This document shows positions 22,188 through 50,786 of a stretch of 64,000 nt of DNA, piece by piece. Location of the stretch: contig JAPKAV010000001.1 of the NCBI GenBank assembly GCA_028825115.1, positions 1 through 64,000 on the forward strand, written 5' to 3'. Position 1 is the stretch's first letter. Every line of letters begins with the position of its first letter. A model generated the notes under the pieces. The model was not told the DNA's origin. It searched no databases and saw only the letters and a list, made by a program, of their open reading frames with translations. The translations under genes were made by a program, and so were the position numbers. This DNA is from Candidatus Nanopelagicales bacterium. Its GTDB lineage: Bacteria; Actinomycetota; Actinomycetes; S36-B12.

Positions 22188-23459
22188 ATGCGCCGTGCGA
22201 TCATCGTCACCACAGCTTCTTTCGGATTAGCAATGTCCATAGTTGTAGCAAACCCGGCCGCAGCTGGTGACCCAATCGATAAGGTGCAGTTTGGTATGCA
22301 CGTGCCGAACATTTCAATTGGTGTCGATCCCGGTGTGAGCTATGGAGCAATTCGACTGTGGGATTCAGGGGTTACTTGGGGTCAGGTTCAGCAGGGAAAG
22401 AAAAAGTATTGGTGGAATGGCCTCGATGCATCGATCGCAAATGCAAACTCACAGGGGGCGGAAGTTCTCTACGTGTTAGGAAGTACGCCGAAGTGGGCCG
22501 CCTCGAACAAGAAGCAAGGTTTTTATCCAAACAAGGGGGCTGCTTCGGTGCCCAAAATGTCCGATTGGAAGAATTGGGTCACCGCAGTCGTGAAACGCCA
22601 CGGTGACAGTATTAATGCTTATCAGATCTGGAATGAAGCGAACCTGAAGGATTTTTGGGCGGGTACGCCTAAGCAAATGGCGGACCTCACCAAGGCCGCT
22701 TCGAAAATAATCCGGAAATATGATCCAGGCGCAAAGGTTGTGAGTGCCAGTAGCACAGTACGTTTGGACAAGTCGTACGAAAAATTTTTCCCAGCGTATC
22801 TCAAAGCCCTTAAAAAGAAAAAATGGCCCGTGGATGTCATCTCGATACATTCATACCCGAAAGGCACCGGGACTCCAGCCAATCGCTCGGCGTATTTGGA
22901 GAAGGTGAACACTCAGATGAAAAAGTCCAAAGTGCCCGCTTCAAAACAATTGTGGGATACCGAGTTCAATTACGGAATTAAGGGTCCGGGAAAGACAAAG
23001 GGTAAAAGCATTGTGGGGGACAAGGCAGCATCTTGGGTCGCCCAGACGTACCTTGAAAACCTAGTTCAGGGCGTTGATCGTTCTTACTGGTACTACTGGG
23101 ATAAGCCCAACTCACTCCTCGGCATCACCATGCAGGACGGGTATCCGGGTGCAGTTGGCTACGAGACCGCCTACATGTGGATGGTTGATTCTTTCTACTC
23201 CTGCACTCCAGGAAAAGTGAATATCTGCCAAATGGGCGACAACGTCCAGCCAGCAGTGGTCGCTTGGGCCACATCCGGCAGCGGCACGTACACTGTACCT
23301 GCCAATGCAACGGTGCAGTGCGATGCGATGAATCGTTGCTCAGCGGTGAACCCTGGAGACTCAATAGCGATTGGAAATATGCCCCTATGGTTTGGAACTA
23401 CAGAACGAAACAACCAGAATCAGGCAGCTCTGGTGCAAAGCCCCGCCATTTCGCAGTAG
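22188..23459 (+). CDS. Secreted clan-A glycoside hydrolase (GH39/PslG-like)
   Basis: A 423-residue protein with a signal peptide (cleavage near NPAAAGD) and a (beta/alpha)8 hydrolase domain. The catalytic pair is visible as WNEAN (acid/base Glu) and WDTEFNYG (nucleophile Glu). Other matches are the GMHVP opening strand and SIHSYP. PslG-type GH39 enzymes in exopolysaccharide clusters cut the polymer they are made with; the same role here is inferred. The start ATG has GAAGGA upstream. Its last 73 bases overlap the start of a paralogue. Confidence 0.85.
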   Translation: MRRAIIVTTASFGLAMSIVVANPAAAGDPIDKVQFGMHVPNISIGVDPGVSYGAIRLWDSGVTWGQVQQGKKKYWWNGLDASIANANSQGAEVLYVLGSTPKWAASNKKQGFYPNKGAASVPKMSDWKNWVTAVVKRHGDSINAYQIWNEANLKDFWAGTPKQMADLTKAASKIIRKYDPGAKVVSASSTVRLDKSYEKFFPAYLKALKKKKWPVDVISIHSYPKGTGTPANRSAYLEKVNTQMKKSKVPASKQLWDTEFNYGIKGPGKTKGKSIVGDKAASWVAQTYLENLVQGVDRSYWYYWDKPNSLLGITMQDGYPGAVGYETAYMWMVDSFYSCTPGKVNICQMGDNVQPAVVAWATSGSGTYTVPANATVQCDAMNRCSAVNPGDSIAIGNMPLWFGTTERNNQNQAALVQSPAISQ

Positions 23460-24724
23460 CGAGTTTCGCACTCGCAGGGGCACTCGTCCTGACCGGTTGT
23501 GGAGGCGGGGCCACGGCTGAGGACGTGGGTGTACCCACTCCAACTGAGTCGGCCACTATTGACCCTAACGCGGTACAACCTTCGACAGTGGGGATGCACA
23601 TCGAAGGTGTCGAGGGCGGTCGGTGGGCGTCAGCGCCATTTGGCGCATTGCGTTTGTGGGATAACGGCACAGCCTGGTCGCAAATTGAGTTAGCCAAAGG
23701 CGAGTTCATATGGGGTAACTTGGATGCTGCCATAGCCACTGCTGAGTCCACGGGTATGAGCGACATCTTGTACGTCATGGGCACAACCCCGGGGTGGGCA
23801 GCCCAGGATCCAAAAAACCTCAACGAAAGCGATTACCCGCAGCCGGGTGCCGCTGAGGCCCCAGCCAATATGGTTGACTGGACAGACTGGGTAACGACCG
23901 TTGTCACGCGGTACAAAGGTGTCATTACCTCCTATCAAATCTGGAATGAAGCAAACCTGAATAACTTTTACAATGGGACCCCGGAGCAGATGGCGGAGTT
24001 GACCAAAGAGGCGTACGACATCATTAAGGAAATTGATCCGGAAGCGCAGGTGGTGTCTGCATCACCAACAACTCGTCTATCTAAATCCTTTGACCGTTTT
24101 TTCCCCAAGTATCTGGAGCAACTCGCGACTTTGGATTGGCCTGTAGACGTGATTGCTCTGCACACATATCCCGATGCCACAGGTGATCCATCGGCGCGTG
24201 GAGCAGCTGTGATAAAGGCCCAGGAATACCTAACCGCAGCCGGCGCACCGACCGTTCCTTTATGGGATACCGAGTTGAATTACGGTCTTGCCGGACCAGG
24301 TGACCTCCCACGAGAGGAAATCACAGGCGCACGTGCGGCTGGTTTTGTGGTTCGCACCTACATCGATAATCTGCGTCTAGGAATTGAGCGCAGCTATTGG
24401 TATATCTGGACGCTGGAGGCCTATGACCTGCTGGGTGTGCAAGTATCCCCCGGCTCCGATGGTGAGCAGGGATTCTTCGCCGTCAATGACTGGGTTGTCG
24501 GAGCAGTATTCGGTGGATGCACTGAGTCGGAAAACACGGTTTTGTGTGATTTTAGCCGAGATGGCACAAATTGGATTGTCGCCTGGGCACAATCGGGTGA
24601 AGCGAACTACACGACTCCGGAGAATTCGCAACTTACATGCGACGCACTGGCCAATTGCAGTGAAGCCCCCCCAGCATCGACTGTGATACTGACCGAAGTC
24701 CCGGTTCGGATCTACCTTCAATAG
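23387..24724 (+). CDS. Lipoprotein clan-A glycoside hydrolase (GH39/PslG-like), paralogue
   Basis: A 445-residue protein paralogous to the upstream gene along its whole catalytic domain (same order GMHIEG, LRLWDNG, WNEAN, WDTELNYG, WYIWT). It has a lipoprotein signal ending in LTGCGGG, so one copy is free or wall-associated and this one is membrane-anchored. I choose ATG 23387, with TTGGAAA about 9 nt upstream; the open frame reaches back to 23264 but lacks a signal-like N-terminus there. The 73-nt overlap with the upstream gene suggests coupled translation after a tandem duplication. Confidence 0.83.
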   Translation: MVWNYRTKQPESGSSGAKPRHFAVASFALAGALVLTGCGGGATAEDVGVPTPTESATIDPNAVQPSTVGMHIEGVEGGRWASAPFGALRLWDNGTAWSQIELAKGEFIWGNLDAAIATAESTGMSDILYVMGTTPGWAAQDPKNLNESDYPQPGAAEAPANMVDWTDWVTTVVTRYKGVITSYQIWNEANLNNFYNGTPEQMAELTKEAYDIIKEIDPEAQVVSASPTTRLSKSFDRFFPKYLEQLATLDWPVDVIALHTYPDATGDPSARGAAVIKAQEYLTAAGAPTVPLWDTELNYGLAGPGDLPREEITGARAAGFVVRTYIDNLRLGIERSYWYIWTLEAYDLLGVQVSPGSDGEQGFFAVNDWVVGAVFGGCTESENTVLCDFSRDGTNWIVAWAQSGEANYTTPENSQLTCDALANCSEAPPASTVILTEVPVRIYLQ

Positions 24725-37909: not shown

Positions 37910-38788
37910 CTATGTTTTTCGTAGTCCGCGAAGACTGCCCTTAAACTTTTCCCACCGATCACCTTCAACGGTTGCCCCCAGCACAGCGTTAACACTCACG
38001 CGGCGCAGGGTACGGAATGCATGCTTAGGGGATTGTCGAAACTCAGCCGGGGCTAACCGCAAACGATTACGGATCATGGTGGCTCGGCGTTTACCACTGT
38101 GACCCGTGGCTAAAACTGTCTTCCCGAAAACTTTAATTGCCCGAGCCTCGCCTAATCTGTGCTGCAACTCAAGATCCGGGGCCAATGCAATTCGATAGCC
38201 CTGCTCCCTTAATCGCAGACAGGCTGCCGCATCGACAGCATCGATTCCAAGTCTTTCATCGAAACCACGGACCAATGTCATCGCAGCCACCGACCACAGA
38301 GTGCCTGATTGGATCACTTCTTCGGTGCATGAGATCTCAGCACCGGCGGAGGCAACAACGGTGATCGGATAGTGCAACTCATCACTTTCATCTCGTACGT
38401 GGCCAGCACCCACAGCACCAATGCGAATTGTTGAATTCCATAAGGATTCCCGTGACTGGGCAAATGTTGTGATCTCGGCAATGTAATCCGCATCCACAAT
38501 AGAGTCTTGATCAAATGTGACCAACCATTGGGCACCTTGATTTTGCGCCCAGGTCAGACCCTCATTGAGTCCACGAGCGATCCCCTCATTGCGACTGTGG
38601 CGAATCACTTCGACTCCAGCCATAGAGCGTAATTGGTTCAGCACAAGATCAGCGGTGCAGGGAGAAGCGTCATCACTCACCATGACTGGTATTCCAGTTG
38701 ATACGAGAACTTCTGCTAACTTCAGCACCTGGTTTTTTGGGGAGTAAGTGGCAATGAGAGCCGCTGTGGTGATTTGTGCGTCATTCAT
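37910..38788 (-). CDS. GT2 rhamnosyltransferase-like (RfbF type)
   Basis: A 292-residue GT-A enzyme with ALIATYSPKNQV, VSDDASPC, NEGIARGLNEGL and VTFDQDSIVD, the RfbF/WbbL-like pattern. The C-terminal helical part carries AIKVFGKTVLATGHSGKRR. ATG 38788 has GGAG eight bases upstream. It is convergent with the GT4 gene 2 nt away and is the last intact gene before the damaged island. Confidence 0.85.
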   Translation of the reverse strand: MNDAQITTAALIATYSPKNQVLKLAEVLVSTGIPVMVSDDASPCTADLVLNQLRSMAGVEVIRHSRNEGIARGLNEGLTWAQNQGAQWLVTFDQDSIVDADYIAEITTFAQSRESLWNSTIRIGAVGAGHVRDESDELHYPITVVASAGAEISCTEEVIQSGTLWSVAAMTLVRGFDERLGIDAVDAAACLRLREQGYRIALAPDLELQHRLGEARAIKVFGKTVLATGHSGKRRATMIRNRLRLAPAEFRQSPKHAFRTLRRVSVNAVLGATVEGDRWEKFKGSLRGLRKT

Positions 38789-39017
38789 AGGATGCGCTCC
38801 AGTACTCTGGCTGAATGCAGGAAAAAGGGGCTGCGTTGATAGCAGTTTATCATCACGACTCGATCCTCTCTATGGGTTGCAATGCTACCCGCAATCCCAT
38901 TTCGGTAGACGGGCATTTAGGCATTTAGGCCATTGGGTTTGGAATGACCCCTTGTGGCGCTTCCACCTGATTTGAAAGTCTTCGTTCACCCATTGTGGGT
39001 GGACATACTCGGTTGTT

Positions 39018-39275
39018 ATGGCTGGTCGAAAGAATCATTCGCCGGAAAAGATTCTGCGGCTTTTGCAGCGCTTTGATGAGGTTCTGGCTCAAGATGTTAC
39101 GGTGGAACTCGCATGCTGGGAGATCCGCATCAGCGCAGGCGCGTATTACGAGTGGCGGCAACGCTATGACGGGATGAGTATTGATGACACGAAAGAGCTC
39201 AAGGAGTCGCGCGTGGAGAACGCGAAACTCAAACGCCTTGTCGCAGACTCCGAGTTAGAGGAATTGATGCTGTAG
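39018..39275 (+). pseudogene. IS3 transposase OrfA, truncated by nonsense codon
   Basis: An 85-residue HTH transposase subunit: NHSPEKILRLLQRFDEVL, a helix-turn-helix with YYEWRQRYDG, and the start of the leucine zipper VENAKLKRLVADSELEEL. It ends at a TAG after LML, but reading through continues EIAKEN, which matches the usual REIAKGN ending, so the TAG is probably a mutated Arg codon. Confidence 0.8.
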
Positions 39276-39299
39276 GAGATCGCTAAGGAAAATACTAAG

Positions 39300-39513
39300 T
39301 CCAACGGCGAAACGTCAGGCCGTTCTGATGCTCCAAAAAAAATTCGGGACATCAGAACGGTTCTCATGCCATGTTATTGGGCTTCAAAGAGCAATGAATC
39401 GCAGACCGCTTGATTATGAAACACCGGCCAATCCTGACCGATGGCTGCGCACGCATTCATGTAAATGGGCAGGCATCGCGCGAGATGCTCGTAAGGGTTA
39501 CCAGCGCGAATAA
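39300..39513 (+). pseudogene. IS3 transposase OrfB N-terminal remnant
   Basis: In the +1 frame relative to orfA, the translation SPTAKRQAVLMLQKKFGTSE and the following CHVIGLQRAMNRRPL match the start of IS3-family OrfB. It stops at TAA 39513 and no DDE catalytic core follows. The stretch to about 39670 holds only scrambled remnants. Confidence 0.75.
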
Positions 39514-39715
39514 GGTTCGCTTGCGCATAAACATAGGCGCAAACGAGCAGGGTCCAGACCGAGCCTGATCACGACCCTTGATGCGCCGAGTGTGGTGGTG
39601 AGCCAATCAGATCAGGCCCGAGTGCCTACTTGGAAAGACTCAGTGGATCAGGTTGCTAAATCACTAACATAAACACTTGTACAAATCTTTCGCCGATGGC
39701 ACCTATTTGATGTGC

Positions 39716-41885
39716 CTATGGAATGGAACATGGAAGCTGTATAACAAGCGAATTATTAATATTTACAGGATTAAATTGATGGAAATTTGAATCCTGTGGA
39801 GAACTATTCGTGATTACGACACTGACACCTTCTGCACAAAGTTGATCGGTCACGTTCGGCTTAGGACTGGACTCCCATGAGCGCAGAAGTTGCAGACGGC
39901 GTTGATATTCCTCATCGCTACCTGCTGGACCAAGGCCTTCGGCGTAATGTCGAGACGAAATAAAGGGTTTCATGTCTGACATTAAGGCCACGATTGCCAG
40001 TGGATTTGCCACAAACGCTATTTCGGATCCGGGTTGAATATTTGATTTGAGGTATTCCGTTATTTCTTTCAGTCCAGGAATTGACGGCAATAATATTTCG
40101 GCTTGGGGAGTTACGTTTGATGAATCTAAGGGTATCGACTGAACCACTTCGGCGATCGGTTTTGTTCGCGTCACAAGGGTCTCTGATACCACCATGTAAA
40201 TAGGGCTGAGTGCACCAAGCCACAGTAAGGTCATAGCGAACAATTTCGTGTAAACATGGCCCGTTAGAGCATAATAGAGAGCTGAAAAAATAATTGCATT
40301 CATTAACCAAACGATAATGAAGGTGATCTGTGCAAAGTCATTAAGTACTGGAAAGTTCGCCACTAGGACAGCCCACAGAATGGCTGTCACACCACTCGCC
40401 ACCGCAATGTACATGACGAAAAGCTTGTTGGGTTTGATCTTTGATCTTTGATCTTTGATTCATTTGAAACACGCAAACCAAAGACAGAGGTATGACAAGT
40501 GCGGATGCTGATGTTAAAAACCAGTAGTTATTGGGGGCCATATTTTCAAACAGCAACAGGGGCAGTATCCCACTAATCCCTGCTCCGACAAAAATCCCAG
40601 ATTGCGCGGGCAAAGTGGGTCGAATTTTGATCACACCCACCACAGAAGGGGCCCAGCTTGGGAGCAGCGCCAAAAGTGTGGCTATCACGGCTCCACTGGC
40701 AAGAACACCGGCGGGGACGTTAGTTGACATTAGAGATGTTAATGGATTCTGTGGTGTCAGCACTCCTGAATCATTTTGTCCAGTCATAAAAACCAAGACG
40801 GGTAGGGCAAATGAGAAGAGGCTAACTATGAAAACGACTGAGAAGCGAATCCATTTTTTCGGGTTATCCTTGAGTGAAAAGAGAAGACTAAATGCAACAA
40901 TTCCGAGACCCACGGCTCCCGCACTAAACTTTGTTCCAGTGAGCGCAGTTAATGTAATGAAAAGTAATGCGATTTGCTCATTTGACCAATTGGATCTTCC
41001 AGCGTTGATGATCTGAATCGCGAGGAACAGAAGGATAAGAGTAGAAGCAATTTGAGAAGTCGAATCAAAGTTGATGTTAAGGCCACTTGAATCAGCAATG
41101 TAGCGACCGAGAACTACGGCGAGAACGGCGAGAGCTTGTATGTAGCGGTTATTTACTAATTGTCGAACAAGTACCGCTACCATAATGGAAATACCCACGA
41201 GGCTAAGGAGTGGAACAACCCCACCCAGCATTGTTAAAGGTTGATTGATTGTTGCTTGATCAAGTATGCCGCTAAATAGGCCACTGAAAAAGTGATACCG
41301 AACCGGCCAGTCGCTCATCAATCCACCCTGAGCCAGTCCATTGGAACTCATTGATTCAGCAACTTGGGCTAAGGGAATCAAGTCCGAGTGAAATGCGGCA
41401 GAGTCAAATGAATCAGCCGTGAATGCATCGAAAATCTGTTGCCGGTAAACAAATATGCCGAGGAGTAATCCGCTGATAGTGGCAAAACCAAGAACAGGAT
41501 CGATGTGAACGTGCAGTGACGGTCTGCGTGCTCGTTTAAAGAAGGCTGTGAACACAAGGGTGAGCACGGGTATGACCAACCAGATTAAAAGTGGGTTGAT
41601 TCGGCCGGCTAAAAAGATTCCAATGAGGGGTATACCGACAAAAGTGAGGGCTAAGCCCGCTCCAATTCCTTCGATTAGTTCCAAGGATCGATTGGTTATG
41701 GTGAACCAGATCCAAGCTCCCGCCATGCAATTGAGCAGTAGAAGTATCGCGAGCACTAAGTACTGGTCCAATCCGACCTCCCCTCTTGAGTGAGCCGAGC
41801 CTAGTACTCTCCATGGAATTATTCGGCCTAGTGCTTCGTGAAATGACGATGGCTTGAAGTTGGCTGTCAGCGTGCGTGTAGCCAT
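39716..41885 (-). pseudogene. GT-C-like membrane protein gene split at a heptanucleotide repeat (possible phase-variable OFF allele)
   Basis: Frame A from ATG 41885 encodes about 11-12 membrane segments with a first loop containing FTADSFDSAAFHSDL. At the 7-bp repeat (40433-40460) the frame leaves the family pattern and stops at 40341. The missing C-terminus continues in another frame: KPNKLFVMYIAV, two or three more segments and an extracytoplasmic tail ending at 39716. Removing one 7-bp unit joins the frames exactly, giving 721 codons including stop (720 residues), similar in layout to the protein at 24869. It is therefore either a recent pseudogene or a switchable gene. It probably acts in glycan assembly. 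Confidence 0.75.
40433..40460. repeat. Heptanucleotide tandem repeat TTTGATC
   Basis: Three perfect 7-bp units (40433-40439, 40440-40446, 40447-40453) and a fourth unit with a final T. It lies inside a coding frame; each unit gained or lost shifts the reading frame by one. The current number breaks the host gene. Confidence 0.95.
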
Positions 41886-42340
41886 CGATGAGCAAATATT
41901 GTCTCTCCAAAGGCTCGGTGGCATCTCAAGAATTTTTATGAGGTAACGAAACAGGACGTGGCCAACCCGGACCTGGAAATTGACCTTCTCTCATTTACGC
42001 GACTAATTATTAACGATTACGTGTTAACGGATCCTCAGTTGCGTGATTCGCTGACCCCACGGTGGCATGATTCCTTTTGGCGCGTCCAACTTGACGTGAC
42101 CCTCTGAATGTGATCGTTTGATATGGACCGCTAAATTGGGGGCCTGCCAAGTTTGGCTTAAATTCTATCATCACGTCTGCTGATTCAAGTTACAACTATC
42201 TTGTCAATTCCTATGAAGTGATGACCAATGTGTCTCCGTTCGCAATCCACCACCCGAGGACAACGCTTGAGTATTTTATGGGGTGACAAATTGGATTAGC
42301 TGGGCGGTGTCGGGTGGTCAAGACAGTTCATTTGCAGCTT
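41886..42340. other. Non-coding, A/T-rich stretch with possible IS-end scar
   Basis: No ORF is supported. At about 42067-42100 the sequence CATGATTCCTTTTGGCGCGT resembles AATGACCCCTTGTGGCGCTT at 38941, the putative left end of the IS3 relic (about 22 of the first 26 positions agree by eye). This suggests a second, lost IS copy. Confidence 0.4.
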
Positions 42341-42349
42341 CTAGCGTTA

Positions 42350-43666
42350 GCAAACTGAGTGGTATTTGGACATTGACCGTGTCGTTTTGAGTCTCATTCA
42401 GACTTCGGCACTGATTACCGTGAGCGTCACCATCGCCCGCCATTTTTTTGGGGGCCGCAGCCGCCTTGACCTTTTCGGGCGGCGTTTTCGTCCTAATTGG
42501 TCCTGAGTTCAATATTTCCTTGGTCGGCCCGGTGTCACTCAGTTTCGCTCTGTCGTTCTTAGCCGTCGCTCTGGCCGTCAAGATAATCTCTGAAAATCCA
42601 CCAACTTTTATTTCAATCCTTTTGGCGCAATTCTCATTTGTGGAGTAATGAATAAAGCAACATTCCGCCTCATGTTTGCACTCTTAGGAATATATTTTTT
42701 ACCAAAGGTTTTCAGGCTGCTCTCTTCGGCTTTATCGTCACCATAATTATATTCGCGCTACTAATTCGTGACCAGATTTTTCATCTCGGATATTGGTTTG
42801 CTGGCTTACTGAGCACGACAGGACGTAACACGGCGGATATTTCGAATGTGCCTCTGGTGGAGAAAATTTTCAGTTCCCCAAGGGTTCTCATAAGTGAAAT
42901 GCCGTGGATCTCGTTTCTGATTTTAATCTATACCTTAGCTCTAATAGTTTTGGTAATTCATTCACGGAAATCTGATCTATGGCTGTTAAGTAATCCAGTT
43001 TTTGTCACAAGCCTCTTGGTCGTAGTTGTAATAGTCGGTTCGACTCTGATGACGACTAAGGACTATCGTCAGGGCGATCTCATTGTGGTTGCTGCTATCG
43101 CACTAATTCTTCTGGCAGCTGTCTTCACCATATTCACGCAGGTGTACCCCAGCATTGCCATGAGAAGAACCTTGTTGGCGAACGCGATCCTGATCGCGAT
43201 AGGGGGTGCTCTCTATTTTTTAAATAATCAGGCGGCATCTGCGCAACAAAAGGCATCACCGAAATATTTGGCCGAGATTGAGCACTGGGAGGCGCACAGG
43301 TCTCAAGATGACTATGTAGCTATGCCGTCTGGAGTTTTTACGCCCTCTATCGCCATCGGATTCGGCGATGAATTGAGTAAACATCTGTTAACAAATAAAA
43401 TTGCGAGAGAATATTCACGCGAATTTTCCCTTAATCTTGAAACTCTTCAAATTCAGACTCGAACCCCAGAAGGGTTAGTAGACGTTGAATACGAAACTCT
43501 CAAGAAGATTGGGGAAGCTGGTTCTTCGATAGTAGTTGGGTCTGGCCGAGACATTCATGTGGAAAGAATGAGACGGGTTAATGGTGCTGGTGTGGTGGAG
43601 TTGGTCGATACGTTTGGTCAATGGCCGGTGTATGGGCTGAGCGACTTCATCTGTCGGGCTGGATAG
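42350..43666 (+). pseudogene. Frameshifted polytopic membrane protein gene
   Basis: Three consecutive frames encode a continuous membrane-protein pattern. Frame 1 (from about 42350) ends with SLIQTSALITVSVTIARHFF. It shifts at a T7-G5 run near 42443-42454 into ALTFSGGVFVLIGPEF up to 42648, and again near 42690-42700 (T6 run) into FQAALFGFIVTIII, which continues to the stop at 43666. The last part (GTG 42848 onward, 272 residues) has five or six membrane segments and an extracytoplasmic tail. The N-terminus is missing. Homopolymer sequencing errors could explain part of the damage. Confidence 0.65.
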
Positions 43667-43707
43667 ACTGAAGGCCTTGACGGATCCAGTCACAGGGTTG
43701 ATAAAGA

Positions 43708-43713
43708 TAGACT
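43708..43713 (+). promoter_or_regulatory. -10 element of gmd promoter
   Basis: TAGACT lies 36 nt before ATG 43750, so this message has a short leader with the Shine-Dalgarno sequence GGGAG, unlike the leaderless genes. Confidence 0.45.
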
Positions 43714-43749
43714 GGGCAAATAAGAGCGGGCAATAGAGGGAGCAGGGTC

Positions 43750-45781: not shown

Positions 45782-48577
45782 GTGGCTACAGGTGAAAGCT
45801 TTGTTGACAAGGTCAAAAAATCTCCCAAAGTTGCCATTTATTGGGGCAAGCTTGCAATAAATAAAATGCCTCCCCCTGTCCAACATAAACTTAATTCGCG
45901 CCGGCACTTAAATATTGTGACCGAACAGATCGCGCAACACACGAACCCCGGTTACCTCCAACCCCGCTACAAACTATCCGACACAATCGCCGACACCGTT
46001 CCTATTAGTTGGCTCGTCCCCACCCGAAGCACGCCATTCCCGCAAAAAGGATTGGAACCTGGGTCTTTCACCGAAGCAGACCGGGAGAGTGTCACCCTCT
46101 GGCTTGAAAACAACTATCTCGATAGCGACCAAGATCTTGTTGAGCGCTTAGATGCAATGAGTGACGAATACGGCCGCTTTCGCACTGCCCTACGAAGTCG
46201 GCTTAACCTAAACAGCATCCCACCAACAAATAACACCCAGCAACTACAACCGGGGCGAGTACTCCTTGACGCGCGTTGCCTGCAAGCGCCGCAGTACGCG
46301 ACCCGGGGAATTGGTAAGTACGCATACGAGCTCCTCGACACTCTGCGCGCCATAATCGGTGACCAATACACCACCTTGCTCATTGACCGAGACCTCACCG
46401 ACCTCCCCAAAGAAATCCAAGGTGACTGTGAAGTAACCCACCAGGTCACCAAGGATCAAACATCACGATTCGGAATTTTCTTTCAACCATCACCTATGAC
46501 CGCAACCATTGATCCGATTATCGCGGTCTTGCATAGCAGTGTTTATGCAGTCTCGATTTTCCACGACTTTATCCCGATGCATTTTCCCAATGTGTATTTA
46601 ACCGATGCCACAACCCGCGTTGAATACAGCACAGCATTTGATTCCTTGGCCTACTTCAACGAGTTCTATTGCAACTCAATAAATACTAAAAACGAACTTG
46701 AAACCCGACTGAAAAAGCGACTTGGTCCAACCCTGAATAACAAATTCCAAGTTGTCTGGCCAGAACCGATCTCTGATCCGATCAACAATGTCCAATTACG
46801 ATCAACAGCAAATGGCCCGATCGTTGTCATGACGGGTGATGAACCCCGCAAAAACAATCTCGGCACCCTCTCAGCAATTGGACTTGCCACCACAAATGAA
46901 CCTAAACGAGACGTTGTAGTTGTCGGCATGTCCAGTCAGTGGGTGACCGTTCACAACACCTCAATCTTGGCAGCAATGCGTCCGGGTGAGACGGTGGCAG
47001 CGCCACGATTAAGTGACCAGGAACTCCACGACCTGTTAGCGCGAGCAAGTGTCACGGTCGTCGCCTCATTTGATGAGGGACTCTCACTGCCCGTGATTGA
47101 GGCCGTCCGTGCCGGCTCACCCGTCGCCGGTTCTTCAATTCCTGAACACGAAGAACTGTTGGGAAATAACGGTGTTTTAGTGCCGGCGGCAAATATTAAG
47201 GAGCTCGCACAAGCAATTAATTACGCCCGCGGCAATCGCGCACTTCATGCCAAACAACTCAGGAAGCTCAATACCCACCAACATGTGTCAACCCCGCAAG
47301 CAACAATCAACACCTTGCAGGACTTCACCCCTCAGGAAGCAGAGTCACCGACACAAACAACTAAGACACGAAACAACCCACCCAAAATTGCATTGGCAAC
47401 TCCGTGGCCCCCGCAACAATCAGGTATCGCGGACTTCTCCCTGGCAACTGCAACCGAGTTATCCAAAATCTCAGAGTTGACCTTGTTCACCACGAGTGAT
47501 GCACAAACAGAAGGCTTTACCAGCCGCAATGTTCGCGAACTTATTGACACTCCTGAAACCGGTAACGAATTTGATTACATTATTTCCGTTTTAGGAAACA
47601 GTAGTTTCCACCTACCATTTTTTGACCTGTTGAATTATCAGAATGCAACGGTTATTTCCCACGACACTCGTTTCATTGAGTACTACGCGGGGGTAACCGG
47701 TGGCGGTGTTGAGCAATTAATGCTCAAAACTAGGAAAGCCAATCCGCGAGGTCGAATTGAACCACCACTAAATCAACAAATTGACGACATGCGATTGATT
47801 CAAAACATGGGGTTCTGGGAAGTTGCGCGCAAATCCCAACAAATAATTCTGCACACCCCCATGGCCGTGCCAATTATTTCCGAGCAAGTGGGCTACACCC
47901 CCAATGTGCTCCCCTTTGCAAATTACCGTGCACCCAAACCCGAATGGCTCACAACGCAAGCACGGGAGCAGGCCCGCACCAACCTAGGGTTTGACAAGCA
48001 CCCGCAAGGAACAATTCACTTCGCCTCATTTGGTTTCGTTGACAACCGAACCAAAATGGCAGACGTACTCCTCGAAACGGCCGCTTGGCTGACCCAGTGG
48101 GGACACCAAGTTGCCCTTTATTTTGTTGGTTCAGCCCAACCTGAGGTCGCAGCCGAACTCACGGCCCGCGCGAAAGAAGTGAACCTGGTTGATTTTGCAA
48201 TCACGGGTTACACCTCCGAGGATGCTTACCGTGACTATTTGCGGGCAATTGACCTTGGCGTGCAACTACGCATCAGCCCTTATCTCGGGGTTGCCGGGCC
48301 ATTGAGTGACATGGCTGCCTTCGGAACCCCCGCAATCGGCAGTCGCGGTGTCTGCATTGACGTTGACACCCCCGAGTTTGTTGACCAAATGCCCGACGAC
48401 GTCAGTTCGGTAATGGTTGCCCAAAGAATTGAATACCGCATCAACAACCCTCACAACCCAGACCTGATTGAAGCGCAACGACTGGACTACCTTGCGCGTA
48501 AGTCACCCAAGCGTTACGCCGAAGAACTACTCGTAATGCTGGAGAATCCGGATCAGCAAGGCAAGGCGGTTCGGTGA
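45782..48577 (+). CDS. Double GT4 glycosyltransferase
   Basis: A 931-residue protein with two complete GT-B modules. Module 1 (about 160-510) begins VLLDARCLQAPQYATRGIGK and has SFDEGLSLPVIEAVRAG. Module 2 (about 540-930) begins IALATPWPPQQSGIADFS and ends with GVAGPLSDMAAFGTPAIGS. The first 150 residues are unassigned. GTG 45782 is preferred because AAGGG lies 5 nt upstream; GTG 45776 is also possible. Modules may add two consecutive sugars. It overlaps the next gene by one base (TGATG). Confidence 0.85.
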   Translation: MATGESFVDKVKKSPKVAIYWGKLAINKMPPPVQHKLNSRRHLNIVTEQIAQHTNPGYLQPRYKLSDTIADTVPISWLVPTRSTPFPQKGLEPGSFTEADRESVTLWLENNYLDSDQDLVERLDAMSDEYGRFRTALRSRLNLNSIPPTNNTQQLQPGRVLLDARCLQAPQYATRGIGKYAYELLDTLRAIIGDQYTTLLIDRDLTDLPKEIQGDCEVTHQVTKDQTSRFGIFFQPSPMTATIDPIIAVLHSSVYAVSIFHDFIPMHFPNVYLTDATTRVEYSTAFDSLAYFNEFYCNSINTKNELETRLKKRLGPTLNNKFQVVWPEPISDPINNVQLRSTANGPIVVMTGDEPRKNNLGTLSAIGLATTNEPKRDVVVVGMSSQWVTVHNTSILAAMRPGETVAAPRLSDQELHDLLARASVTVVASFDEGLSLPVIEAVRAGSPVAGSSIPEHEELLGNNGVLVPAANIKELAQAINYARGNRALHAKQLRKLNTHQHVSTPQATINTLQDFTPQEAESPTQTTKTRNNPPKIALATPWPPQQSGIADFSLATATELSKISELTLFTTSDAQTEGFTSRNVRELIDTPETGNEFDYIISVLGNSSFHLPFFDLLNYQNATVISHDTRFIEYYAGVTGGGVEQLMLKTRKANPRGRIEPPLNQQIDDMRLIQNMGFWEVARKSQQIILHTPMAVPIISEQVGYTPNVLPFANYRAPKPEWLTTQAREQARTNLGFDKHPQGTIHFASFGFVDNRTKMADVLLETAAWLTQWGHQVALYFVGSAQPEVAAELTARAKEVNLVDFAITGYTSEDAYRDYLRAIDLGVQLRISPYLGVAGPLSDMAAFGTPAIGSRGVCIDVDTPEFVDQMPDDVSSVMVAQRIEYRINNPHNPDLIEAQRLDYLARKSPKRYAEELLVMLENPDQQGKAVR

Positions 48578-49716
48578 TGACAATCGGAATAGACCTCGAA
48601 CAGTTTGTTACCGACCCGTTTGCATCCGGTGTGCAGCGCGTTGTGCAGTACCTAGCAAAAGAATGGCCACGTGAAATCCAAGCCGACTGGATTGTTCCCA
48701 CCAATAACAAAAATGGTGATTACGCACTGCTCACCCGCGAGCAAGCCGCAGCCCTTATCTCAATTCCCTTTGACAACCCCATGCATGTTTCTGAACTCCC
48801 GGACGCAGTTGCCGCTGCAATAAGAAATATGCAGGCACCAACAATCACCGAAGCTGAGCTTGAGTCCCGCTACGACCTCTGGTTTCTCCCTGAAGTGTGT
48901 TACACACCTAAAGTCCTCAAAAGATTTGAGCGAATCCAAAAAACCACCACAACTGCCATGATCGGCTACGACGCCCTTCCCATGAGTGACCCCTATAACT
49001 ACAAGTTCACCCCAGGAACCCTGGCAACGGTGAGTGAATACTTCCGGCTCATTGCCACTACCAACATTTTGCTGTGCATCAGTGAGTTTACCAAAGACCA
49101 AGCACTCACATTTCTACGCAGAAGCCCGGAGCCCACCACCGAAGTTATTCACCCCGGCGGGGACCACATTTCCGCCCACATTTCCGACAACACCAACACA
49201 ACAAAGACCTACCTGCGTGTTGGCACCATGGAAGCTCGTAAGCAGCCGGTCGAGATCCTCAACGCATTCCTGCATGCCCGAGAAAACGGAAACCTCAAAG
49301 CAGAACTCCACTTTGTCGGAGCACCCGCTCGCGTGGACGTTGACATTAACTTTGCTATTGAACGAGCAATCAGTGAAGGCGCCCCCGTGCGCTGGACCAC
49401 AAATGCAAGTGACGAACAAGTAATGGATTTGGTGAGAGAGGCTGATGCATTCCTCTCCTTTGGTCGCGAAGGTTATGGAATTCCCGTACTTGAAGCCATT
49501 CAACTGGGCACCCCGGTGTTCTTTGACGGAACCCAGCCCGCCGCCGAGCTCATGCAAGGACACGGCGCCTACAAAACTTCAGTTGACCAGGCCTTCCAAG
49601 CACCGCTGCCACGAGCTATCACGCGTAAAGACCAAGAGCACGTACCCACCTGGAAGAATTACGCTTGCGACATCGCACATTCATTGAGCAAGGCTCAACA
49701 GGAGGGTTCGTCATGA
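48577..49716 (+). CDS. GT4-family glycosyltransferase
   Basis: A 379-residue GT-B enzyme. Opening strand TIGIDLEQFVTDPFASGVQR, central YLRVGTMEARKQPVEILNAF and GT4 donor motif LSFGREGYGIPVLEAIQLGTP. It resembles the N-terminal half of the GT4 protein at 29324. ATG 48577 overlaps the preceding stop; GTG 48574 is an alternative. It belongs to the run of translationally coupled GT4 genes. Confidence 0.87.
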   Translation: MTIGIDLEQFVTDPFASGVQRVVQYLAKEWPREIQADWIVPTNNKNGDYALLTREQAAALISIPFDNPMHVSELPDAVAAAIRNMQAPTITEAELESRYDLWFLPEVCYTPKVLKRFERIQKTTTTAMIGYDALPMSDPYNYKFTPGTLATVSEYFRLIATTNILLCISEFTKDQALTFLRRSPEPTTEVIHPGGDHISAHISDNTNTTKTYLRVGTMEARKQPVEILNAFLHARENGNLKAELHFVGAPARVDVDINFAIERAISEGAPVRWTTNASDEQVMDLVREADAFLSFGREGYGIPVLEAIQLGTPVFFDGTQPAAELMQGHGAYKTSVDQAFQAPLPRAITRKDQEHVPTWKNYACDIAHSLSKAQQEGSS

Positions 49717-50786
49717 GAGTTGCAATTGATGAACAAATCTTCGCACTCCAAAGACACGGTGGGATTTCTCGCCTCTTTTACGAATTAATATCGCAGTACC
49801 GAAACAATCCGGACTTTAACGTACAGGTTCTACCTTTTGACCGGCCGATTATTAGTGAGTACGTGATCAGAGACGTTCCCCTTCGCGACTACTTGAACGC
49901 GACTGCATCTAATCGAACCATCACCGGATTGTTCAAACAAGCAGCCCCGGGGAAATTTGATAAGCAAGCACAAATCGTTCACCACACATTCTACCTACCC
50001 CCAGGGCTTTATCGTTACAAGCAAGCCAAACGAATTGTCACGGTTTACGACATGATTCCTGAGATCATGCAACATACGAAACGTCGATTGGACTTTGCCA
50101 CTCGAAAGCGCAAGTTCCTCGAGGCAGCTGACCACGTCACCTGCATTTCACAGTCGACACTCAATGACGTGAAGCGAATCTGGCCTGATCTGCAGGTCCC
50201 CATGTCGGTGACCCACTTGGGCGTTAACCCGGCTTTCACACCAACAGCTGTCCACGACCAATCACTCCCGGAGAATTATATTTTGCATGTGGGCAACCGC
50301 GCCGACTACAAAGATGCTTGGACATTGACGCAAAGCTTCCAGAAACTTGCCCCGGAATTCCCCGACCTCAAACTGCTTTATGTTGGTGGTGGCAAGCCAA
50401 CCCCAGCTGAACAGGCCCAGTGGGGGAGCAATATCCAGTGGTTGCAAGCTCCCGAAACCCAACTACCTTCGATTTACGCCCAAGCGCGCCTATGTGTAGT
50501 TCCCTCCCGCTATGAAGGATTTGGGTTGCCAGCTTTGGAAGGTCTTGCCTCTGGAACCCCCCAGATTCTCTCGGACACTTCGTCCCTGCTCGAGGTGGGC
50601 GGAAGCGCTGCCCGCCATTTCACACCAGGAAGTATCCCCCAACTGACCGATCTAATCTCTGAAGTGCTCACCAACCCGCAGTTAGCCAAAGAAATGAGTG
50701 ATTCGGGGCTAGAGCAGGCGAAAAAGTTCACCTGGTACCGCTACGCTCAAGCGACCGCTGACGTTTACGCGAAGACCTTGGACTAG
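49713..50786 (+). CDS. GT4-family glycosyltransferase
   Basis: A 357-residue GT-B enzyme with RVAIDEQIFALQRHGGISR at the N-terminus, HVGNRADYKD, and VPSRYEGFGLPALEGLASGTP. The start ATG 49713 overlaps the upstream stop as ATGA with AGGAGG seven bases upstream; the longer frame from 49665 is rejected. The family includes mannosyltransferases, but the donor is not predictable. Confidence 0.88.
   Translation: MRVAIDEQIFALQRHGGISRLFYELISQYRNNPDFNVQVLPFDRPIISEYVIRDVPLRDYLNATASNRTITGLFKQAAPGKFDKQAQIVHHTFYLPPGLYRYKQAKRIVTVYDMIPEIMQHTKRRLDFATRKRKFLEAADHVTCISQSTLNDVKRIWPDLQVPMSVTHLGVNPAFTPTAVHDQSLPENYILHVGNRADYKDAWTLTQSFQKLAPEFPDLKLLYVGGGKPTPAEQAQWGSNIQWLQAPETQLPSIYAQARLCVVPSRYEGFGLPALEGLASGTPQILSDTSSLLEVGGSAARHFTPGSIPQLTDLISEVLTNPQLAKEMSDSGLEQAKKFTWYRYAQATADVYAKTLD

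Follow-up and report, generated by a model that had tools for sequence, protein, structure and literature searches.

A heptanucleotide array at the frame break of a putative GT-C-type glycosyltransferase gene in a decaying surface-glycan segment of a Nanopelagicales bacterium

The window, a stretch of 64,000 nucleotides from a Candidatus Nanopelagicales genome, contains a membrane-protein gene whose reading frame is broken exactly where a heptanucleotide repeat lies. This locus raises the question of whether the repeat is a switch that turns a surface-glycan gene on and off or the place at which the gene was recently broken. On the minus strand, CAAATGA is followed at 40459–40433 by three ATCAAAG units and a partial unit, ATCAAA, and then by CCC. 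TRF reported a period of 7 with 3.9 copies and 100% matches at 40433–40459, and the unit read as 40454–40460 has a mismatch at its last base. The first-pass annotation, which had placed three perfect units and one imperfect unit exactly at the frame break, was thus accurate on this point. Its further claim that deleting one unit or adding two gives a single ORF agreed with the recomputed frames. As assembled, the ORF from ATG 41885 reads through the array to a stop codon at 40343–40341. With one unit fewer, it extends for 720 codons plus the stop ending at 39716; with two more units, the full ORF has 727 codons, and with one more unit, it is still broken (501 aa).

The start codon probably differs from the one first proposed, ATG 41885. 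This ATG falls where a glycosyltransferase remnant begins on the opposite strand, whereas the in-frame TTG 41771 has a strong Shine-Dalgarno sequence, GGGGAGG (41783–41777), 5 nt upstream, and the homologues begin at about this codon in the multiple alignment; TTG 41771 is therefore the likely start. The ORF from TTG 41771 to 39716 would probably encode 682 aa with its frame restored, as against 476 aa in the assembled state. The coordinates of the gene, the array, and the surrounding features are given in Table 1.

Table 1. Features of the array-bearing gene and of the segment that contains it (window coordinates)
Feature	Position	Strand	Basis
Broken gene for a putative GT-C-like glycosyltransferase, with TTG 41771 as the probable start	39716–41771	−	Frames, alignment, paralogue model
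N-terminal half from the first-proposed ATG 41885; 26–28% identical to intact homologues	40461–41885	−	Homology search, alignment
C-terminal half, read in the shifted frame; follows the homologues up to their conserved C-terminal Cys	39716–40432	−	Multiple alignment
Heptanucleotide array, (ATCAAAG)3 + ATCAAA, 3.86 units; site of the frame break	40433–40459	−	Sequence, TRF, frame test
Extra segment, 4.96 kb, between the GT2 gene and gmd	38789–43749		Comparison with three relatives
Remnant of an IS3-type element, HTH_Tnp_1 (PF01527); orfA frame 39021–39275	38934–39502	+	Domain match; 83% identical to a copy in G011 contig 9
Last ~24 codons of a GT4-type glycosyltransferase gene related to window 48574–49716	39598–39671	+	Sequence comparison
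First ~60 codons of a GT4-type glycosyltransferase gene related to window 49713–50786; internal frameshift, truncated	41872–42062	+	Sequence comparison
Second membrane-protein pseudogene; stops and frame changes in the N part, C part open from 42656	42179–43666	+	Frames, homologue

Both halves of the gene are open and align end to end with the homologues, and the lesions of an older pseudogene are absent, so that the gene is at most a young pseudogene. The N-terminal half keeps 18 of its 19 near-invariant positions of the family, the C-terminal half retains the final Cys, and the coding signals of the two halves were 0.151 and 0.177, as against 0.09–0.28 for intact genes. Since both halves keep their coding signal and near-invariant residues, the break itself appears to be young. 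Further inactivating mutations in both halves, together with one unit number in all reads and strains, had been named beforehand as what would speak against a switch; no second lesion was found in either half. The loss of conserved residues was also considered as a sign of decay and rejected as non-discriminating, because the window protein matches the homologues in 46% of the conserved columns, and an intact divergent homologue (L010) does likewise. A bypass of the break, by ribosomal frameshifting at the repeat or by separate initiation at ATG 40414 for the C-terminal half, could yield a functional product, and the coding signal retained in both halves and the overlap of ATG 40414 with the end of the N-terminal ORF are consistent with it. 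However, a Shine-Dalgarno-like sequence is absent before ATG 40414, frameshifting would require a +1 shift at a site with no recognised slippery sequence, and the homologues are single uninterrupted ORFs; we regard a bypass as highly improbable. An artefact of assembly or consensus, in which the true chromosome would have two full units and an intact gene, is very unlikely. The sequence comes from one assembly, a bin that is 77.5% complete, is fragmented into 144 contigs, and may mix strains in its consensus, but the array, at 27 bp, is shorter than a short read, which makes a miscount of its units unlikely, and the neighbouring window genes outside the decayed segment are not riddled with frameshifts.

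Homologues of the gene were found in 15 of the 97 genomes searched, counting its own, which has two more intact paralogues (C93:20802 and C92:83011). Nearly all the homologous frames are 590–800 aa long, stop-free, and 26–28% identical to the window protein, and no close orthologue was found in the genome contigs searched. The C-terminal half used alone as a query in the relatives matched only itself, and its homology is visible only in the multiple alignment. The comparison of the restored translation with databases, which had been proposed as a check, brought out intact distant homologues but no Pfam or NCBIfam family above the cut-off, and a sequence search of the PDB gave only weak matches to designed proteins. 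The AlphaFold model of an intact paralogue from the same genome (L018) had a pLDDT of 84.6 and a pTM of 0.89. Foldseek matched this model to ArnT (5f15, E 6.2e-06), with DPY19, AftA, and STT3 also among the best matches, and VIA-align against GT-C enzymes gave Z values of 13–16. According to the model, the paralogue has a GT-C fold composed of a multi-pass membrane part and a C-terminal soluble domain. The earlier description of the product as a membrane protein of a glycan cluster therefore stands, in that the protein is multi-pass with a GT-C fold predicted from the paralogue and glycosyltransferase genes are clustered around it; this fold and the surrounding cluster suggest a putative role in surface glycan assembly. 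The paralogue model shares its fold with ArnT (5f15), AftA (8if8), and STT3/PglB, and an acidic residue characteristic of GT-C enzymes, an Asp, stands in the region of its first large loop; the sequence identity is about 9–14%. In the paralogue, this residue is D146, which is invariant in the family and present in the window protein, and it may have a catalytic role. The array corresponds to a short loop between the helices 451–476 and 480–502 of the model; the product of the OFF frame would therefore end before the final helices and the C-terminal soluble domain.

The array is far above chance expectation. Arrays of 7-mers with at least three copies occurred 0 times in 60 dinucleotide shuffles of the 64-kb window, and those of 5–9-mers with at least three copies occurred at a mean of 0.07 per shuffled 64 kb. 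The repeat survey took in contig C92 (208 kb), which contains the window, and a further 20 kb from C93, about one-tenth of the genome in all. The heptamer array was the sole non-triplet 5–9-mer array with at least three copies on C92, on which the runner-up heptamer had 2.57 copies. An exact string search of the whole assembly found ATCAAAGATCAAAGATC at the heptamer array alone, and (ATCAAAG)3 was found in none of 11 congeners. The homologous loci (L004–L019, including the two paralogues from the same genome), all of which are distant (26–28%), contained no 5–9-mer array with at least three copies. Hexamer arrays with 5.83 copies occur at two places on C92 (177300–177334 and 201348–201382; L113 and L114), within ORFs of 406 and 428 aa. 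These were rejected as frame switches because they are triplet-compatible and inside ORFs, so that their length can vary without a frameshift.

Phase-variable loci are defined by a varying number of units and a high, reversible rate of change. If the array were a selected contingency repeat, two full units or five would turn the glycosyltransferase ON, and three, as here, would turn it OFF; this could, for example, vary a phage receptor. Such phase variation is rather unlikely in our estimation. It is favoured by an array that is far from random and sets the frame, by two intact halves, and by an intact ribosome-binding site. Three units also satisfy the permissive threshold reported for heptamers in Haemophilus influenzae (PMC2651432), and two glycan genes, neuO (PMC13001214) and pglE (PMC7157529), are known to be switched by heptamers. 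On the other hand, 3.86 units are near the lower limit of the known heptamer switches, the array comes only after about 65% of the gene and not close to its start, and it is absent from the homologues and paralogues. Moreover, the 208-kb contig has no further array of this kind, the neighbourhood is decayed, and nothing points to a host for the organism. The fuller proposal, in which a free-living freshwater actinobacterium of the plankton would switch a GT-C glycosyltransferase ON and OFF through a heptanucleotide array under selection, probably so as to vary its surface against phages, seems to us unlikely.

The known heptamer systems are instructive in both their likenesses and their differences. 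The neuO gene of E. coli K1, which is cargo of phage CUS-3, varies through the heptanucleotide AAGACTC, usually with ~20 units (range 3–53) at its 5′ end (PMC13001214). The window gene, likewise acquired and putatively glycan-modifying, resembles neuO in having a heptamer array inside its coding frame, with one frame in three ON. However, variation between cells and strains was measured for neuO with its 5′ array, whereas the window gene has its few units two-thirds in and is seen in one assembly; we claim no homology between them. The pglE gene of Neisseria meningitidis, a heptanucleotide phase-variable glycosyltransferase gene (PMC7157529), is similar in having a heptamer repeat in a glycosyltransferase gene, but it belongs to a pathogen adapted to its host, in which contingency loci are numerous and switching has been observed, whereas the window gene is known from the sequence of one assembly. 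The window locus resembles neuO and pglE in anatomy and is a candidate for a phase-variable locus.

The description of such variation as rarely reported in actinobacteria holds only in part. For Mycobacterium tuberculosis, there are reports of repeat-based phase variation (PMC11898584, PMC12817950), and indels in low-complexity sequence of this species silence genes, can be reversed, and leave frameshift scars (PMC8339072); actinobacterial phase variation as such would therefore not be new. The M. tuberculosis silencing by frameshift is actinobacterial like the window case, although thousands of isolates stand there against one assembly here. Among the papers searched, none linked Nanopelagicales with phase variation.

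The initial association of such repeats with a host-associated lifestyle finds no support here, as the closest records that carry a name are bins from environmental metagenomes, and several of these are labelled Candidatus Nanopelagicales. Among the nearest are UBA4426, with 98% identity in PbpA and ~95% in core DNA, and UBA3120. The lineage is environmental, and the isolate names, together with general background, lead us to take it as freshwater. Two differing copies of the PbpA region occur in the UBA3120 bin itself (L021 and L034, whose proteins are 96% and 91% identical to that of the window), which suggests that the bin is mixed.

The surroundings of the gene were then compared with those in the relatives. 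In three of them (G011, G003, and G100), a homologue of the GT2 gene (window 37910–38788) is followed after ~0.1 kb by gmd (window 43750), and the extra segment of the window lies between these two genes. The counterparts of the two glycosyltransferase ends listed in Table 1 adjoin in G101, 75 bp apart. The second membrane-protein pseudogene has an intact 545-aa homologue in G011 contig 7 (L131:268–1902), beside a GT4-type glycosyltransferase gene like window 48574–49716. Within the segment, nothing but the array-bearing gene is nearly intact, and UBA4426, the closest genome, is without this gene and has hardly any of the neighbouring island. Judged from these comparisons, the segment is an acquired, decaying piece of the glycan cluster, a putative gene graveyard.

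We consider it probable, though well short of certain, that a horizontally acquired GT-C-type gene was recently broken by slippage in this decaying surface-glycan segment of a free-living actinobacterium. Strand slippage would have changed the array by one unit, from 2.86 to 3.86 units or by an equivalent step, and the resulting frameshift would have cost the function of a putative lipid-linked-sugar glycosyltransferase. We infer slippage as the cause because the lesion lies exactly at the array; the recency of the break, the loss of function, and the absence of selection for switching back are likewise parts of this account that go beyond the frames themselves. Low-rate reversion by similar slippage is conceivable, and the locus could therefore act phase-variably even without selection. 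This reading is favoured by the degradation of all the other genes in the segment and by the three relatives that are without it, as well as by the coincidence of the sole lesion with the sole non-triplet 5–9-mer array of at least three copies on C92, in a family that is otherwise array-free. By contrast, the completeness of the gene over ~680 codons amid wrecked neighbours suggests that it was kept functional after their decay, which counts against a slippage break under decay. The growth of a heptamer array implies tolerated OFF states or relaxed selection, because each step of one unit shifts the frame. This argument cuts both ways, as OFF states may be tolerated through switching or through relaxed selection. 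If the gene is merely slippage-broken, it would be an ordinary snapshot of gene turnover in the variable surface-glycan islands of freshwater actinobacteria. Uncultured planktonic Nanopelagicales are expected to change their surface fast under pressure from phages, which has so far been ascribed to gene replacement; mixed unit numbers in the reads would add them to the bacteria whose glycan genes undergo simple-repeat phase variation.

Two other repeated features occur in the window. Three copies of a 30-bp tandem repeat lie at the contig end (1–89), and similar repeats are present at the corresponding end of L020 (5239–5287). The adjacent overlapping ORFs at 22188–23459 and 23264–24724 encode similar secreted-protein sequences and probably represent a tandem duplication of a glycoside-hydrolase-like gene.
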